Virus record (IMG/VR): IMGVR_UViG_3300030406_003319
Location: 1-35,012 of that record
From: a virus
Length of the DNA: 35,012 nt
Direction: 5' to 3' (one strand)
The notes under the pieces are model-generated. The model saw only the letters and a program-made list of their open reading frames with translations, searched no databases and had not been told where the DNA came from. Below are positions 2,356-34,921 of the stretch, in pieces. The position numbers and the translations under genes are program-made. Position 1 is the stretch's first letter. Each line of letters begins with the position of its first letter.

Positions 2356-3005
2356 AGCTGAGACTTAAGTTGCGAGATTTTTACAAGCGCTTTAAATATT
2401 TCAATCCCGGTTTCTAATTTCTCTCTCTTTATGATGTGCTGATGAAATTTGCCATCATCTTTTCCAAAACGCATAATAAGGCCATACGCTACATTGGCCT
2501 TTGGTTGCGCTTGTTCAAACATATACGTGTATGCAGCAAGTTGTAATTTGTTCTCTGCATACAGATATTTACTTGTCTTCCAGTCCACAATAACAAGGTC
2601 ATCTCCCATGCGAGCAATACAATCTATTGTGCCACCAACTTGCATTTCTTCATTTACCAGGACAAGTTCATTACGCAGTGGTTTGAATTTGACCTTCTCA
2701 TACCATTGCAAGTATCCTGCAAATGCTTTCATTGCAGCCTTTTCTTGGTTATAGCTATAATCTTTTGTGTCAATATCAAAGCCTTGCTGATGACCTTCAA
2801 TGAGCAAATGAAGTAATGTGCCGATCTGCGCAGCCTCATCTAACACCTTGTCACTATCTTGGCCACCAAGCATCATGCGCTTGGTCCATCCTAAAAGCGC
2901 CTGCTTATTCCATCCAAGTTGCTGATTAATAATTGTTGTTACGCTTGGCACGCGATTACCTTCTTCATTAATATATTTAGTGCCATGCAAATCAAACTTA
3001 CCCAT
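2352..3005 (-). CDS. PD-(D/E)XK exonuclease, RecB/Cas4-like
   Basis: Probable DNA exonuclease for phage recombination or replication. The 217 residues carry the family signature: H66 in GTLLH, D128 in GGTID, the D141-W-K143 catalytic pair and the Q155-x3-Y159 motif typical of the RecB/Cas4 branch. An upstream AAGGAG ribosome binding site supports the start. It overlaps the methyltransferase gene upstream by 8 bp and the primase gene downstream by 4 bp, consistent with translational coupling. No Cys cluster is visible, so it is not a canonical Fe-S Cas4. Confidence 0.85.
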   Translation of the reverse strand: MGKFDLHGTKYINEEGNRVPSVTTIINQQLGWNKQALLGWTKRMMLGGQDSDKVLDEAAQIGTLLHLLIEGHQQGFDIDTKDYSYNQEKAAMKAFAGYLQWYEKVKFKPLRNELVLVNEEMQVGGTIDCIARMGDDLVIVDWKTSKYLYAENKLQLAAYTYMFEQAQPKANVAYGLIMRFGKDDGKFHQHIIKREKLETGIEIFKALVKISQLKSQL

Positions 3006-3978
3006 GTAAACTCCTTATCTTTTTCGCTACTAATTCTACCACTGGCACGCTCACGGCGTTGCCACACATTTTATATCGTTGTGTATCTGATATCTTTTGA
3101 CCATCTGCATATGCAGTCCAGTCATCAGGAAAACCTTGCAAGCGCTCGCATTCTTTTGGTGTAAGCCTGCGCACTTCATTATCTAACTTATACAAACCGG
3201 TTTTATTGTCATTAATGCCACCCTCACCGGCAAGCGTCTTAGCAATACCTTGGTCGCTATATACTCTAGAGTTAAAGTCATAACTATCTTGTTTGCGTCC
3301 TAATGTTCCTACTTGAATCAATGTTTCACCACCTGAATGTGCGCCTCTCATTATGTTTTGTGTAATTGCGGTTGCACATTGATCCTTAGTCTGCCCCGGT
3401 CCTCGGCTCTTTTGTAGTACGCTATCGCTTTGTCCGATAGGAAATACTTTTGATCTACTTCTGTTTCCAAGATGTCCGACAATATATATCCGCTCTCTAT
3501 TTTGGGGTAGTACCCAGCGAGTATTAAGCAATTGGCATTCAACGGTATAACCAAGGTCGGCAAGAACTCTATAGATTGTAGCAAATGTGCGTCCATTGTC
3601 GTGACCAAGCAGGCCTTTAACATTTTCGAGTACAAAATAACGGATCGGCTTTCCATTTTCTCTGTAATATCGCAAAATCCGCGCGATATCAAAAAAGAGA
3701 GTACCTCGGGTGTCGTCAAAGCCTTTTCTTCGTCCGGCAATTGAGAAAGCTTGGCACGGAAATCCTCCACAAAGGATGTCAATGTTACTTGGTAAATCTC
3801 TTCCTGGCTGAATAGCGGTAATGTCTCCGAGTGCTTTGGCATCAGGAAATTTCTCCTGATAAACCATTGCAGCATACTTGTCTATCTCCGAATATCCTAC
3901 CCATGTAAACGTAAATCCTGCTTGCTCAAAACCTTTGTGGAAGCCACCAATACCACTAAAAAGGTCCAACATGCGCAT
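2998..3978 (-). CDS. C5-cytosine DNA methyltransferase
   Basis: Methylates cytosine at C5 in a short DNA target using S-adenosylmethionine. The 326 residues show all the key motifs: I (LDLFSGIGGF, 4-13), IV with catalytic Cys75 (GGFPCQAFS), VI (LENV, 117-120), VIII (QNRERIYIVG, 159-168), a target-recognition region about 190-270, and X (GNAVSVPV, 306-313). No cognate endonuclease with a matching recognition domain is evident next to it, so it is probably an orphan methylase protecting phage DNA from host restriction. The ribosome binding site AAGAGGTG lies just upstream. The target sequence cannot be read from the protein. Confidence 0.95.
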   Translation of the reverse strand: MRMLDLFSGIGGFHKGFEQAGFTFTWVGYSEIDKYAAMVYQEKFPDAKALGDITAIQPGRDLPSNIDILCGGFPCQAFSIAGRRKGFDDTRGTLFFDIARILRYYRENGKPIRYFVLENVKGLLGHDNGRTFATIYRVLADLGYTVECQLLNTRWVLPQNRERIYIVGHLGNRSRSKVFPIGQSDSVLQKSRGPGQTKDQCATAITQNIMRGAHSGGETLIQVGTLGRKQDSYDFNSRVYSDQGIAKTLAGEGGINDNKTGLYKLDNEVRRLTPKECERLQGFPDDWTAYADGQKISDTQRYKMCGNAVSVPVVELVAKKIRSLHG

Positions 3979-3979
3979 A

Positions 3980-4222
3980 TCATTTGCACCTCTTGCATAC
4001 TACCTTTTTCTTGCCATATGTAGGAATGTGTCCTACACGGTAGAATAACACATCTTGCCCATTGTGTTTAGCAGGATTGACCTTTTCCCATGTTCTACGG
4101 CATTTAGGACATGCTCTAATTGATGAATCTACAACTAATTTACGGCCACGTGTTTCTAAATTTTGCCTTATAGCACCTTGCCTATTTTCATTCTTTATAC
4201 TTTGATCAATTATCCATTGCAT
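3980..4222 (-). CDS. Small zinc-ribbon protein of unknown function
   Basis: The 80 residues have two CxxC pairs (CPKC at 38-41 and CKRC at 76-79), suggesting one treble-clef or ribbon zinc site, with a basic surface. I do not recognise the family. It lies between two DNA methyltransferase genes and ends within 2 bp of the start of the C5 methylase. Its ribosome binding site is GAGAGGTAA, the same type as the rightward accessory genes. A DNA-binding or modification-accessory role is possible but only by context. Confidence 0.7.
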   Translation of the reverse strand: MQWIIDQSIKNENRQGAIRQNLETRGRKLVVDSSIRACPKCRRTWEKVNPAKHNGQDVLFYRVGHIPTYGKKKVVCKRCK

Positions 4223-4233
4223 TGCTTACCTCT

Positions 4234-4935
4234 CTATATAGTTAATTGTGTTGATTGATTAAATATGTCTACCTGACTAACTTCTTGTTTGATTCTTTTT
4301 TGCGCAATATCCACAAAATCAGGGTTAATTTCACTACCAACATACTGTTTACCTAATTTTATTGCAGTTAGTGCAAGTGTTCCGCTACCCATAAATGGGT
4401 CATAAAATATTTTGCCGGGTGTGCGTGCTACTATAGGCAAATATGCCTCTACTGGGTCTTGAGCAGGATGCACACGTTTATTATGTATATAATCTGATTG
4501 TGGATTAACACCGGTAATAAGATCAATTGTAGGCACACCTTTCACATTAGATTCCATGCTCATTTTATCTGCGGTTACGCTCATAGCAATAGGTGTTATG
4601 GTTTTTATCCATTTATTTTTGATTCTACCAGTAGCGCCAATATTTCTGCGGTGATAATAAAGCCATTGAGTAAAGCCTGATAACGCTTCTTTCAGCTCCC
4701 ACATATATTCCTGACTCATAAATACATACACTGCATTTGCAGCAACGCGCTCCATTTCTTTACATAAACACGTCAGCCATATAATGTAATGCTCTTTTTT
4801 ATCACTGCTATATGGTCCGTAATCTTTTTTTGCATTCCACGGCGGTGATGTAACAATAACATCTACGGCATTGTCAGGCCATCTAGCCATAGTATCCATA
4901 CAGTCTTCGTTATATATTTTATTTGTTGACGGCAC
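4234..4935 (-). CDS. Amino-group DNA methyltransferase (N6A or N4C), SPPW type
   Basis: Transfers a methyl group to the exocyclic amine of adenine or cytosine. Motif IV is TSPPW (29-33), preceding motif I FYDPFMGSGT (177-186), with motif-X-like HPAQDPVEAY (156-165). That order is the beta class. SPPW occurs in N4-cytosine and some N6-adenine enzymes, so the base is undecided. It starts with GTG at 4935, preceded by AAGGTG, and overlaps the upstream small gene by 17 bp. With the C5 methylase and the PAPS-reductase-like gene it forms a DNA-modification group. Confidence 0.9.
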   Translation of the reverse strand: MPSTNKIYNEDCMDTMARWPDNAVDVIVTSPPWNAKKDYGPYSSDKKEHYIIWLTCLCKEMERVAANAVYVFMSQEYMWELKEALSGFTQWLYYHRRNIGATGRIKNKWIKTITPIAMSVTADKMSMESNVKGVPTIDLITGVNPQSDYIHNKRVHPAQDPVEAYLPIVARTPGKIFYDPFMGSGTLALTAIKLGKQYVGSEINPDFVDIAQKRIKQEVSQVDIFNQSTQLTI

Positions 4936-8761: not shown

Positions 8762-8841
8762 GGGGCGACTTGAGGATTCAATTGAGAGGTTAGAATCAAA
8801 ACACAGTGCAGTACACTGTGTAAACAAGAAGGATGTCGCCC
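8762..8841 (-). ncRNA. Candidate structured leader RNA (closed multibranch element)
   Basis: An 8-bp GC stem, GGGGCGAC (8762-8769) with GTCGCCCC (8834-8841), encloses two hairpins: GATTC (8775-8779) with GAATC (8793-8797), and a perfect 8-bp ACACAGTG (8801-8808) with CACTGTGT (8814-8821). It fills the gap between the regulator gene and the next leftward gene, so the leftward transcript would carry it as a 5' leader. On that strand the first hairpin contains CCTCTC, the complement of the GAGAGG ribosome binding sites elsewhere in the genome. The pairing is visible; the RNA function is inference. It could instead act as DNA. Confidence 0.5.
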
Positions 8842-9102: not shown

Positions 9103-9130
9103 TTGCATTTTGTTCACAAATGTGTATATT
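9103..9130 (+). promoter_or_regulatory. Candidate integrase promoter with operator in the spacer
   Basis: TTGCAT (9103-9108), a 16-base spacer and TATATT (9125-9130). The spacer is filled by the near-palindrome TTTGTTCACAAA (9109-9120). The predicted start near 9137 leaves a short leader carrying GAGAGG before ATG 9153. An alternative TATAAT at 9135-9140 lies too close to the start codon to leave a leader. Confidence 0.5.
9109..9120. promoter_or_regulatory. Operator-like site TTTGTTCACAAA
   Basis: The most symmetric copy of the shared motif (TTTG-TTCA-CAAA), lying in the spacer of the candidate integrase promoter. A bound regulator would block RNA polymerase there. Confidence 0.55.
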
Positions 9131-9152
9131 CAACTATAATTGAGAGGATAAA

Positions 9153-10259
9153 ATGGCAAGTTTAAACACATTTCGTAATTCATATAAAGTTGCATATCGC
9201 GACCCACGCGATGGTAAAAGAAAGCAACGTTACTTTAAAACTAAAGAAGAAGCTATTATTGCATTAGGTCATTGGCAGCAAGTAGAATTGTATGCTAAGA
9301 ACAATATGAACTGGCGCGCATTATTGTATAATGAAGCACCACAAAAAACATTAGATGAGATATTTACGGCTTTTACTAATAATGTACTAAGCACATTAAC
9401 TAATGTAGATACAATTGCTAAGTATAATGTGGTAATTAATAGTTGTAAGAAAGTTTTTCCTGGCAACACAATTGCTTCTGAAGTACGCACTACATCGCAA
9501 AACGTAATGGGTGTTACAGTTACTGGTTGGACCATATATAAACATATTATGGAATATCAGCATAATCGTTCGCGCCGTGGCATAGATAGTTATATGAGAG
9601 ATTTATTACACATATTTAATTGGGCCTATGAGGAAGAACTAGTAGACAAGCGCATCATGCGTAAAAGCGATCGCTATAAAAAGCATGAGCTTGCACCGCT
9701 TACATTTAAAGTATGGTCCAATGAAGAAATCAATTATATCTTCAACCATTCTGAATTATCACAAGAGCAAAAAGATATATTGTGGTTATTTGCTATTACC
9801 GGTGTTCGTGCTAATGAATTAGTTGGCCACAATACTAAAAAGCCATACAAGGAGTTACACTGGCATCATATTGACTTTATTGGTAATAAGATGCAATTAC
9901 TGCAAAAGCGCCGTCAAATAAGAGAAACGGCATCTGTACATCCAAGTGCGATTGCAATATTTAAGAAGCGTTTTAGAAGTGGAGCTGATAGACCGCTTGA
10001 TATGAACTACAAAGAACTTAATGCATTAATTAAAGAAATTAGTAGTATTGTAGCAATTAAATTTACGTGCCATGACTTACGCAGAATGAAAGCACAAGTA
10101 TTACGTAATGAGACTCAAGATATTACGCAAGCATCAAAAGGTATTGGTGATAAAACAACTGAGGTAGTGCATAATCATTATGCAGGCACAACCATTGAAG
10201 AGCAACAAGCAATTAATGATACTGCTTACAATGCTTTTATTGATATTGTTAAGCAGTAA
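9153..10259 (+). CDS. int: Tyrosine integrase
   Basis: Site-specific recombinase that integrates and excises the phage genome. The 368 residues show an N-terminal arm-binding-like segment (Y-K-V-A-Y-R-D-P, with K-R-K-Q-R-Y-F-K-T), a SAM-like core-binding region, and the catalytic set R219 (TGVRANEL), H307 and R310 (HDLRR), H340 and Y343 (HNHYAG). The leader AATTGAGAGG precedes the ATG. It is the only rightward gene between two leftward operons, and its 3' end overlaps the end of the late operon by 11 bp tail to tail, so late transcripts would run antisense to it. No attP could be identified by eye. Confidence 0.95.
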   Translation: MASLNTFRNSYKVAYRDPRDGKRKQRYFKTKEEAIIALGHWQQVELYAKNNMNWRALLYNEAPQKTLDEIFTAFTNNVLSTLTNVDTIAKYNVVINSCKKVFPGNTIASEVRTTSQNVMGVTVTGWTIYKHIMEYQHNRSRRGIDSYMRDLLHIFNWAYEEELVDKRIMRKSDRYKKHELAPLTFKVWSNEEINYIFNHSELSQEQKDILWLFAITGVRANELVGHNTKKPYKELHWHHIDFIGNKMQLLQKRRQIRETASVHPSAIAIFKKRFRSGADRPLDMNYKELNALIKEISSIVAIKFTCHDLRRMKAQVLRNETQDITQASKGIGDKTTEVVHNHYAGTTIEEQQAINDTAYNAFIDIVKQ

Positions 10260-32620: not shown

Positions 32621-33307
32621 ATGAATAAGTATATTACACATTTATCAAGAGTTTCAAGTAATAGCAAAGTTGGACCAATACCGGTTAGTACTACCGAGGC
32701 GTCAACGTGTCCGCCGTCCTGCCCATTTATTAACGCCGGTTGTTATGCTAAAACCGGGCCGGTTTCATGGCATTGGAAAAAGGTTACTAACGGTTTACGC
32801 GGTGACACGTTCAAAGAGTTTTTATCTAAGATAAAAGCTTTACCAAAAGGTCAATTGTGGCGTCATAACCAAGCCGGTGACTTACCCGGAAACAATGAAC
32901 GTTTAGACGGTGACGCATGCGAAGAGTTAACCAAGGCCAACAAAGGAAAGCGCGGTTTTACATATACTCATTACGATCCAAAAAAACACGGTAACGGCGT
33001 TATAATTAAAGCAATGAACAAAGCCGGTTTCACTGTGAATCTATCCGGTAATAGCATTGATGAAGCTATAGAACTAAGCAAGTTAAACGTTGGCCCGGTT
33101 GTATCTGTTGCAGATAGTGAAACTAAAGGCGCGTTTAAAAAAGGCGGTAAGCAGTTCGTACAATGTCCGGCAACCGCAGAAAACAACAACGTAAGTTGTG
33201 CAACCTGCCAACTATGCGAGGTTAAAACACGCAAGTCAATTGTATATTTTCCGGCGCACGGAACACAAAAGAAAACAGTCAATAACATATTAAATAAGAG
33301 AGGTTAA
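32621..33307 (+). CDS. DUF7227-like cysteine-rich phage protein
   Basis: A 228-residue protein with the pattern I associate with DUF7227: G-P-I-P-V-S-T-T-E-A-S-T-C-P-P-S-C-P-F, then G-C-Y-A, W-H-W, L-W-R-H-N-Q-A-G-D-L-P-G, and a C-terminal cluster with C-P-A-T-A, V-S-C-A-T-C-Q-L-C. The Cys pattern (CxxxC then GCYA) recalls phage Gp37/Gp68-type proteins with Fe-S-like clusters, but no activity is known to me. It is the first and largest gene of the accessory operon, with leader GAGAGGTTAGAA (32608-32619). Confidence 0.75.
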   Translation: MNKYITHLSRVSSNSKVGPIPVSTTEASTCPPSCPFINAGCYAKTGPVSWHWKKVTNGLRGDTFKEFLSKIKALPKGQLWRHNQAGDLPGNNERLDGDACEELTKANKGKRGFTYTHYDPKKHGNGVIIKAMNKAGFTVNLSGNSIDEAIELSKLNVGPVVSVADSETKGAFKKGGKQFVQCPATAENNNVSCATCQLCEVKTRKSIVYFPAHGTQKKTVNNILNKRG

Positions 33308-33310
33308 AAC

Positions 33311-33493
33311 ATGAGTACTTTTAATGATAAAGAATGGCAAGAGTTATCAGAACTAGGACACAAGATTATTATTGATTTAAGCACAAACCCAAACGGTGAC
33401 GGCGTGCCGGGCCGGAATAGCAGGTTTCAAGCAATATCAAACATGATCAAATATTTAAGATTGCATAATTTGGAGGTTAAAAAAAATGGATAG
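33311..33493 (+). CDS. Small hypothetical protein, 60 aa
   Basis: A soluble, mostly helical protein (W-Q-E-L-S-E-L-G-H-K-I-I-I-D-L) with a polar loop N-P-N-G-D-G-V-P-G-R-N and a second helix. Unrecognised. The leader AGAGAGGTTAAAAC immediately precedes the ATG. The next gene overlaps its end by 8 bp. Confidence 0.75.
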   Translation: MSTFNDKEWQELSELGHKIIIDLSTNPNGDGVPGRNSRFQAISNMIKYLRLHNLEVKKNG

Positions 33494-33617: not shown

Positions 33618-34140
33618 AAGCACTGCAACCAAGTTCCTAGAATATATAGAGCGCAACCCAAAACTGCGTTATAAACAAATGCAACAATTTTTTTGGCGTA
33701 ACAAATACCCAAATAAACCGCTTGCGGATATGTCTAGAGGTTATTATTGTACAAATATTCAAGCATTGATTTATAAAGGCCATATAGCAAAAGATAAAAA
33801 TAAACTATATAGTCTTACAAAGTCCGGCAAGCAGTACCAAAAAACGCCATATGCAGAAACTAATGAAGCTAAAATAGCTATGAAAGCAGTTGAAAATTAT
33901 AAACGAGGAATGCAAGATTTGCATCAATGGCATTTACAAAGAGCGGATGCGCGCGGACATATTGAAACTATTGGTGAACTTAAAGCGCTTTTAAATGAAT
34001 TTGACAATCATTATAAAATAGAGGTTGCAATTGACCCGGAAATAAACGCAGTTGGACCAATAGCAACTCAAGTTTGTGAAGATCAGGACGGTTTTAGGCG
34101 CTTAATTACATTGTTTCCAACTCATACAAGGCCGGTTTAA
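33607..34140 (+). CDS. Winged-helix-like DNA-binding protein candidate
   Basis: The first 80 residues of this 177-residue protein look like a winged helix: A-T-K-F-L-E-Y-I-E-R-N-P-K-L-R-Y-K-Q, then Y-Y-C-T-N-I-Q-A-L-I-Y-K-G-H-I and a wing-like K-L-Y-S-L-T-K-S-G-K. The remainder has a helix with L-H-Q-W-H-L-Q-R and a beta-rich end (Y-K-I-E-V-A-I-D-P). It could be a second regulator of the phage. Leader AGAGAGGTTAAAA. Confidence 0.6.
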   Translation: MKNKSTATKFLEYIERNPKLRYKQMQQFFWRNKYPNKPLADMSRGYYCTNIQALIYKGHIAKDKNKLYSLTKSGKQYQKTPYAETNEAKIAMKAVENYKRGMQDLHQWHLQRADARGHIETIGELKALLNEFDNHYKIEVAIDPEINAVGPIATQVCEDQDGFRRLITLFPTHTRPV

Positions 34141-34202
34141 TGAATGACTTTATTATACTAATTGTTTTCATAATAATTGCGTATTTATTAGACCCGGATT
34201 AA
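34140..34202 (+). CDS. Membrane microprotein, 20 aa
   Basis: It starts in a TAATG overlap with the gene before, encodes M-N-D-F followed by about 13 hydrophobic residues (I-I-L-I-V-F-I-I-I-A-Y-L-L) and ends D-P-D. A single membrane span fills nearly the whole peptide. Translational coupling and composition argue for a real gene; the length makes it uncertain. It lies just before the ribozyme-like element. Confidence 0.5.
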   Translation: MNDFIILIVFIIIAYLLDPD

Positions 34203-34210
34203 ATACGCGC

Positions 34211-34285
34211 TTTTGTTATACCGATGAAGCCTTAAGGCAGAAACTGGTGTAGATTAATCCGATCCGCGCCAGTCTATAACTAAAA
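34211..34285 (+). ncRNA. Candidate type I hammerhead ribozyme
   Basis: Stem I is GTTATA (34215-34220) with TATAAC (34275-34280), extendable by TTTT/AAAA across a bulge. The core CCGATGA (34221-34227) follows, then stem II GCC/GGC with loop TTAA (34229-34238), GAAA (34240-34243), stem III ACTGGTG (34243-34249) with CGCCAGT (34267-34273), and cleavage triplet GTC (34272-34274). A15.1-U16.1 and the GUC fall in register. Deviations are C for U at core position 4 and an A-A mismatch (34228, 34239) at the base of stem II. Cleavage after 34274 would cut the operon message 27 bases before ATG 34302. Activity is unproven. Confidence 0.6.
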
Positions 34286-34301
34286 TAAGAGAGGTTAAAA
34301 C

Positions 34302-34697
34302 ATGTATAAAGAATATCAAGACGGTAAAATTACGTACCGCGAAGCATGCCAAGAGCGCTTCAAACATGCGAAAGAATATCAAAAGAAAAGTACATTTGAT
34401 ATTTTTGAAAGCTTAGATATGTTTGATAGTTCATATTTAAATGACGTTTGTCCATCATTTATGCTAAATTGCAATGATGGCCAAGTAAAGCAAGAAAATG
34501 ATCTGCGCTTTTGGATTGCAAATAGTACTTTTGATAATATGGACCAAGAGCAATATAACACGCATATGATATATTTAAGCGGTGTAAGTGGTGAAAATGT
34601 TTTATTATTTGAAACTACAGATATAAATATTTTTTATAGTGTTATCAAAAGCAATTTTGAAATATTTGAAGCAATGCAAAAAGAGGTTAGAAAATGA
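34302..34697 (+). CDS. Hypothetical protein, 131 aa
   Basis: An acidic, soluble protein rich in Asp, Glu, Phe and Tyr (S-T-F-D-I-F-E-S-L-D-M-F-D-S-S-Y), with basic residues only in the first 30. Not recognised. Charge and size are compatible with a DNA-mimic or inhibitor protein, but that is speculation. Its leader AGAGAGGTTAAAAC lies directly after the ribozyme-like element, so its message may have a ribozyme-made 5' end. The next gene overlaps it by 4 bp. Confidence 0.75.
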   Translation: MYKEYQDGKITYREACQERFKHAKEYQKKSTFDIFESLDMFDSSYLNDVCPSFMLNCNDGQVKQENDLRFWIANSTFDNMDQEQYNTHMIYLSGVSGENVLLFETTDINIFYSVIKSNFEIFEAMQKEVRK

Positions 34698-34921
34698 ATA
34701 ATAAAATAAGTATAAGAAATTGCGGTCAATATATTGTGCAATTTAACAAAAAGCATAAAAATGTTTTATGGATTAAAGACACTAAAAACAATAAAACAAT
34801 ATATATAGATGATAGCACACTAGAGCAATTAATTTTTATACATAAAAATAACGTAATTAATGCTAATGATGACGGCTTAATTTATGCATGTGAGCAAGGT
34901 ACGCAAAAAGTAAGAACCTAA
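34694..34921 (+). CDS. Small hypothetical protein, 75 aa
   Basis: Alpha/beta, Asn/Lys-rich (I-R-N-C-G-Q-Y-I-V-Q-F-N-K-K-H-K, then V-L-W-I-K-D and I-Y-I-D-D-S-T-L-E-Q-L). Unrecognised. It is the last gene of the rightward operon; its stop lies in the terminal repeat, directly before the terminator. Leader AGAGGTTAGAA (34682-34692) lies inside the preceding gene. Confidence 0.75.
   Translation: MNNKISIRNCGQYIVQFNKKHKNVLWIKDTKNNKTIYIDDSTLEQLIFIHKNNVINANDDGLIYACEQGTQKVRT

Follow-up and report, generated by a model that had tools for sequence, protein, structure and literature searches.

A putative self-cleaving hammerhead variant in a phage operon, with A.A in place of a Watson–Crick pair at the foot of stem II

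The stretch of DNA analysed here (hereafter the window) is the 35,012-base IMG/VR record IMGVR_UViG_3300030406_003319, which carries the terminase, head, and integrase genes of a tailed phage. Its terminase is only about 31–32% identical to those of named phages, e.g., Pelagibacter phage HTVC202P. The last 2.4 kb are occupied by a series of genes on the plus strand, which opens with a DUF7227 gene (32621) and closes with a gene of 75 residues that ends at 34921; a GC hairpin and then a T run lie beyond this end. Near the end of the series, between the gene for a 20-residue membrane peptide and the gene starting at 34302, lies the hammerhead-like element described below (Table 1), in the location given by the original prediction. 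Near-identical versions of the peptide precede the ribozyme directly in L007, L191, and L195, and a 38-residue membrane peptide takes its place in L005 and L009. No relatives of the 34302 protein were found in named phages.

Two further observations concern the gene series itself. The DUF7227 protein (32621–33307), which also gave a weak GP88 match, has counterparts of ~50% identity in PAK_P1-like Pseudomonas phages and in Roseobacter phage CRP-345 and was present in 10 of the 22 ribozyme-bearing records; a scanned stretch of a DUF7227-bearing Roseobacter phage contained no element. A leader of the form GAGGTTA(A/G)A...ATG is common to six start codons (32610, 33300, 33473, 33597, 34291, and 34683) and represents an unusually uniform ribosome-binding motif within the series. 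A candidate second copy of the element at 33276–33313 was rejected, since it consisted only of this shared ribosome-binding leader, AAATAAGAGAGGTTAAAACATG, and contained no ribozyme.

Table 1. Coordinates of the hammerhead-like element, its parts, and the two adjoining genes in the window.
Feature	Position	Strand	Basis or remark
Gene of 20-aa membrane peptide, MNDFIILIVFIIIAYLLDPD	34140–34202	+	Stop codon 12 nt upstream of stem I
Whole variant type I hammerhead element	34215–34280	+	Sequence; model R2 match; RNA parts GUUAUA-CCGAUGA-A-GCC-UUAA-GGC-A-GAAA-CUGGUGU...GCGCCAG-UC-UAUAAC
Stem I, 5' strand GUUAUA	34215–34220	+	Pairs with UAUAAC 34275–34280, 6 bp
Core CCGAUGA	34221–34227	+	Consensus CUGAUGA; C4 = 34222, G5 = 34223
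Position 10.1, A	34228	+	C in most relatives
Stem II, GCC-UUAA-GGC	34229–34238	+	Arms 34229–34231/34236–34238, loop UUAA; 100% of cells paired, 15 sequences
Position 11.1, A (canonical C)	34239	+	A in 15/15 aligned sequences
GAAA segment (G12 A13 A14 A15.1)	34240–34243	+	Invariant across 15 sequences
Stem III hairpin, CUGGUGU/GCGCCAG	34244–34272	+	Arms 34244–34250/34266–34272
U16.1 C17, predicted cleavage after 34274	34273–34274	+	GUC invariant, 15 sequences
Downstream leader, 27 nt	34275–34301	+	First six bases = stem I 3' strand
Shine–Dalgarno AGAGAGG within the leader	34288–34294	+	Sequence
Downstream gene, 131 aa, without known family	34302–34697	+	Relatives at 7 loci

The window copy has the topology of a type I hammerhead: stem I is open, stems II and III are closed by loops, and all three meet in a three-way junction, which is also the minimum-energy fold of the RNA. 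The folding energy is only mildly low and unremarkable when taken alone (z −1.78). Both this fold and the homologues agree with the type I hammerhead originally predicted, including its register and coordinates, and the cut position after 34274, the C at position 4, and the A-A at the foot of stem II had all been read correctly. G12 A13 A14, the A15.1–U16.1 pair, and H17, which a hammerhead requires, are present in the window copy and lie in invariant columns. The required core C3 U4 G5 A6 N7 G8 A9 is exact in most relatives and departs from the consensus at position 4 in the window copy, which has C; the second departure is A.A at 10.1–11.1, where the consensus has a Watson–Crick pair. Because both U4 and the 10.1–11.1 pair fail in the window copy, we file it as a hammerhead variant. 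In natural hammerheads, contacts between stem I and loop II usually make the reaction fast; loop II of the present element has one invariant A (column 22), for which inspection of the stem I flanks revealed no consistent partner.

The first strong evidence for the element came from protein searches, as these are blind to RNA. Relatives of the 34302 protein (L003–L006) and of the 33607 protein (L007) all had the element in the same gap, and a wider profile search with the 34302 relatives yielded seven IMG/VR loci (L003, L004, L005, L006, L009, L228, and L191), all seven contigs carrying the element. In L007, the upstream gene and the peptide are as in the window and the downstream gene is different. 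Pattern scans of IMG/VR, followed by a descriptor consisting of [CU][UC]GAUGA, GAAA, UH, and three stems, added contigs with unrelated stems from unrelated phages. Since the scans used exact patterns and some listed only a share of their matches, the members found are a lower bound and understate how widespread the group is; likewise, the records are fragments, so that copy numbers per phage are lower bounds. Among the 80 genome-contig loci listed, none had a convincing element. In bacterial genomes of one order, the element was found in 0 of 391, with few candidates scored per genome, so this result does not show that prophage copies are absent. The single match in 395 genomes of a second order was dismissed, as it had neither GAAA nor stem III.

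Fifteen distinct sequences were aligned, with the loop of stem III masked and the structure fixed beforehand. Over 17 pairs, 98.4% of cells were paired, a percentage that leans towards structure because the descriptor favours pairing; this bias does not extend to the diversity of pair types or to the members retrieved by protein homology. Two-sided changes occurred at 14 of the 17 pairs (6/6 in stem I, 2/3 in stem II, and 6/8 in stem III, A15.1–U16.1 included), and the number of double-changed cells was 91, compared to 28.9 obtained by shuffling. When the register was slid by 1–3 columns, pairing fell to 27.5–38.5%. Between the window and L007, 8 of the 66 bases of the element differ; among these differences is the pair next to the cleavage site, which is A-U in the window and G-C in L007. 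The check for covarying homologues in related phages that accompanied the original prediction was therefore positive. Covariation was unchanged on the eight sequences that remained without the whole clade of the window, and a covariance model built from these eight, all from unrelated phages (model R2), matched the window at 34213–34282 with 42.3 bits (E 5.6e-10, a rough value, as are all our covariance-model E-values, which come from short calibrations); the next best match within the window scored 12.7 bits.

These data bear on the possibility that the resemblance arose by chance in AT-rich intergenic DNA, which has nothing in its favour except the shortness of the core. Covariation in independent phages refutes it, and the match of the leave-clade-out model opposes it, as do shuffling and flank swapping. 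Dinucleotide shuffles of the window, scanned on both strands, gave one descriptor match in 150; with a looser descriptor, 20 matches were observed in 342 kb of related records vs. 0.15 expected, three of the 20 copies lying outside the targets of the earlier pattern searches. When downstream flanks were swapped among 171 pattern-matched places, 0.11 passes were expected vs. 8 real ones. We regard the probability of a chance resemblance as negligible. Sequence comparison confirms that the element is real, a conserved structured RNA of hammerhead build.

Aside from A15.1–U16.1, the pair 10.1–11.1 is described as the most conserved of the hammerhead, and its G10.1 helps to hold a metal ion discussed in the hammerhead mechanism. 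Copies retrieved by protein homology have A.A at this place in the window and L003, C.A in the rest, and G-C in none; A11.1 is found in every one of them. Their core is CUGAUGA in L004, L007, L009, and others and UUGAUGA in L005. A.A recurs in L456 and L145, the L456 copy having a canonical CUGAUGA core, and there are C.A relatives whose CUGAUGA core is otherwise perfect. By its sequence, the window copy is a member of a phage group with C.A or A.A at the normally Watson–Crick position 10.1–11.1, and the original view of the A-A mismatch as possible decay proved wrong, given C.A in relatives with an otherwise perfect core and A.A in other phages. L539 and one of the L145 copies have G-C at this position. 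Because A11.1 and either C10.1 or A10.1 are set by the patterns of the scans, base frequencies taken from these scans are biased. As a control, a pattern with G10.1/C11.1 and the same geometry matched 23 stretches, one of which was a true hammerhead (L539), vs. 71 stretches and about 14 hammerhead-bearing contigs for the C.A pattern; C.A is thus the commoner form in IMG/VR, in the short-stem geometry. As stem II covaries, the mismatch lies between a real helix and the sheared A9–G12 pair.

Three records deserve separate description. L145 (IMGVR_UViG_3300032087_002188; 9107–10068, minus strand) has three copies within ~1 kb, with G-C, A.A, and C.A; these three hammerheads stand before three small genes, and two of them have an identical stem I (gcaaat/atttgc). 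L539 (IMGVR_UViG_3300047160_015936), at 9996, combines the canonical G10.1–C11.1 with the same short stem II and precedes a start codon by 30 nt. In L456 (IMGVR_UViG_3300030098_001818), a hammerhead-like copy at 8819, about 1.2 kb upstream of the A.A copy, has G.U at 10.1–11.1 and UA replacing UC at the cleavage site.

A metal ion has been placed at the A9 phosphate and a nitrogen of G10.1 (PMC7151607; PMC6257768), and C at 10.1, judged from base chemistry, would be unable to supply an N7 for it. The best tolerated mismatch at 10.1–11.1 is U.U, which was reported as a natural exception to Watson–Crick pairing there; U4C, itself a reported natural variant, considerably lowers activity in vitro, yet a viroid with this change stays infectious (PMC3088659). 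The C.A and A.A hammerheads may be slow, and the cost of U4C, together with U.U being the mismatch best tolerated, suggests the same for the window copy.

A rival reading is that the group as a whole are hammerheads and the copy shared by the window and L003 is dying, too slow with U4C and A.A combined, while its structure lingers. Two core departures that do not occur in the close relatives L007 and L195, as well as the in vitro cost of U4C (PMC3088659), would fit such a history. However, both changes are common to the window and L003, and the two elements match at all 66 nt even though 34 of 396 sites have changed in the adjacent gene, which suggests selection. Furthermore, A.A recurs with intact stems in L456 and L145, and U4C left the viroid infectious (PMC3088659). 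A dying copy seems unlikely to us.

Searches with Rfam models, which had been suggested together with the original prediction, gave no hammerhead match for the window copy at either the gathering or a relaxed threshold; the weak relaxed-threshold matches within the window were unrelated and low scoring. RF00163 (Hammerhead_1) and RF02277 (Hammerhead_HH10) matched at no member's site in 18 records. All Rfam models equally missed L539 with its canonical G-C pair, so the negative result says little and is weak evidence of novelty. The nearest model was RAGATH-1-hammerhead (RF03152), with 31.9 bits for L145 and 29.8 bits for L154 at a cut-off of 56.3 and no match to the window copy. In this model, a hairpin lies upstream and stem II consists of a single pair, whereas members of the phage group have a covarying stem II of three pairs. 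Inspection of the flanks by eye for a RAGATH-1-like pseudoknot revealed no consistent partner.

Hammerheads in phage operons are already known. The type I hammerheads of phages and prophages described by Perreault et al. (2011; PMC3088659) share with the present group the order of parts, GAAA, A15.1–U16.1, H17, the three stems, clustering around single genes in phage operons, and a proposed role in processing of long transcripts. In contrast to them, 10.1–11.1 is C.A or A.A here rather than G-C, the aligned members have three stem II pairs beyond the mismatch, and the window copy has C4. HHphage and HHmeta of saltern viruses are likewise core-variant hammerheads close upstream of a start codon in a phage transcript, but their variation is an insertion near C3 and not an altered 10.1–11.1 pair (PMC3088659). 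The Bcep176 hammerhead with A6C is another natural core variant from a phage, in which the change shifts the metal preference from Mg2+ to Mn2+; it differs from the present group in the core position affected and in the order of parts in the published sequence (PMC7151607). In the main texts of the minority of journals searched, C.A at 10.1–11.1 was not mentioned, and the group with C.A or A.A in its core appears to be new as a hammerhead variant.

Placement relative to genes is conserved. In 18 of 19 distinct scored copies, the predicted cut lies 24–33 nt before a start codon (median 27; raw distances), the exception being the C.A copy of L145 with 86 nt; in the window, the predicted cut after C34274 is 27 nt upstream of ATG 34302. 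The stop codon of the upstream gene usually falls in the element itself or no more than about 12 nt away from stem I. In L195 and L205, which carry the same element, the reading frame related to the 34302 gene ends after 22 codons, and the ribozyme is intact. Flanking genes differ among L007, L005, L009, L195, and L205, so the element stays while its neighbours are swapped. Two phages have two copies and one has three, one copy having the canonical G10.1–C11.1. In L070/L514 (IMGVR_UViG_3300029448_006517), a gene of 190 residues lies between two hammerheads that are nearly identical and separated by 659 nt.

A fixed distance to the start codon would also suit a translational element, and a conserved hammerhead-shaped regulator that no longer cuts can be imagined, which might, for example, bind a protein, offer a nuclease a landing site, or switch translation from its place 27 nt before the start codon. 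GAUGA, GAAA, A15.1–U16.1, GUC, and the exact junction spacing are nevertheless kept across unrelated stems, and a plain hairpin element would not need such cutting features. In addition, a copy with the canonical pair resides in the same phage, within about 1 kb of C.A and A.A copies. We consider a non-cutting regulator very improbable. Because the core is canonical in most relatives but for 10.1–11.1, self-cleavage after GUC is the simplest reading, and judging from sequence the window element is quite probably a self-cleaving hammerhead variant that processes polycistronic phage RNA and leaves a short leader with a 5'-OH on the next gene.

According to this scheme, the element would be transcribed within the multi-gene operon and then fold, and the retained core suggests that cleavage after C34274 would be carried out by G12 and the 2'-OH of G8, as in other hammerheads. 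The upstream product would end in the stem II and stem III hairpins with a 2',3'-cyclic phosphate, and the downstream product would begin with a 5'-OH and the 27-nt leader in which the 34302 gene has its ribosome-binding site. A long transcript with copies on either side of single genes would be converted to gene-sized messages with separate stability and translation. In prophages, hammerheads are clustered around single genes, and tandem constructs are cleaved in vitro and in E. coli; HHphage precedes a start codon by 13 nt, and the 5' end of its transcript was mapped to no more than 3 nt from the cleavage site (PMC3088659). A broader proposal, that the group is a lineage that dispenses with the near-universal G10.1–C11.1 and its metal-binding N7 and serves as a general cutter ~27 nt before start codons, providing every message with a short leader that starts in a 5'-OH, is somewhat doubtful at present and offered as tentative.

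A covarying natural group without the 10.1–11.1 pair, in which one phage also has a copy with it, provides matched ribozymes with which one can ask what this pair and its metal site do, and the fixed placement at 24–33 nt makes the purpose of phage hammerheads directly testable. Elsewhere in the window, at 2998–4935 on the minus strand, two methyltransferase-like genes were recognized by eye: the gene at 2998–3978 resembles a cytosine-5 methyltransferase, and that at 4234–4935 is a second gene similar to DNA methyltransferases.
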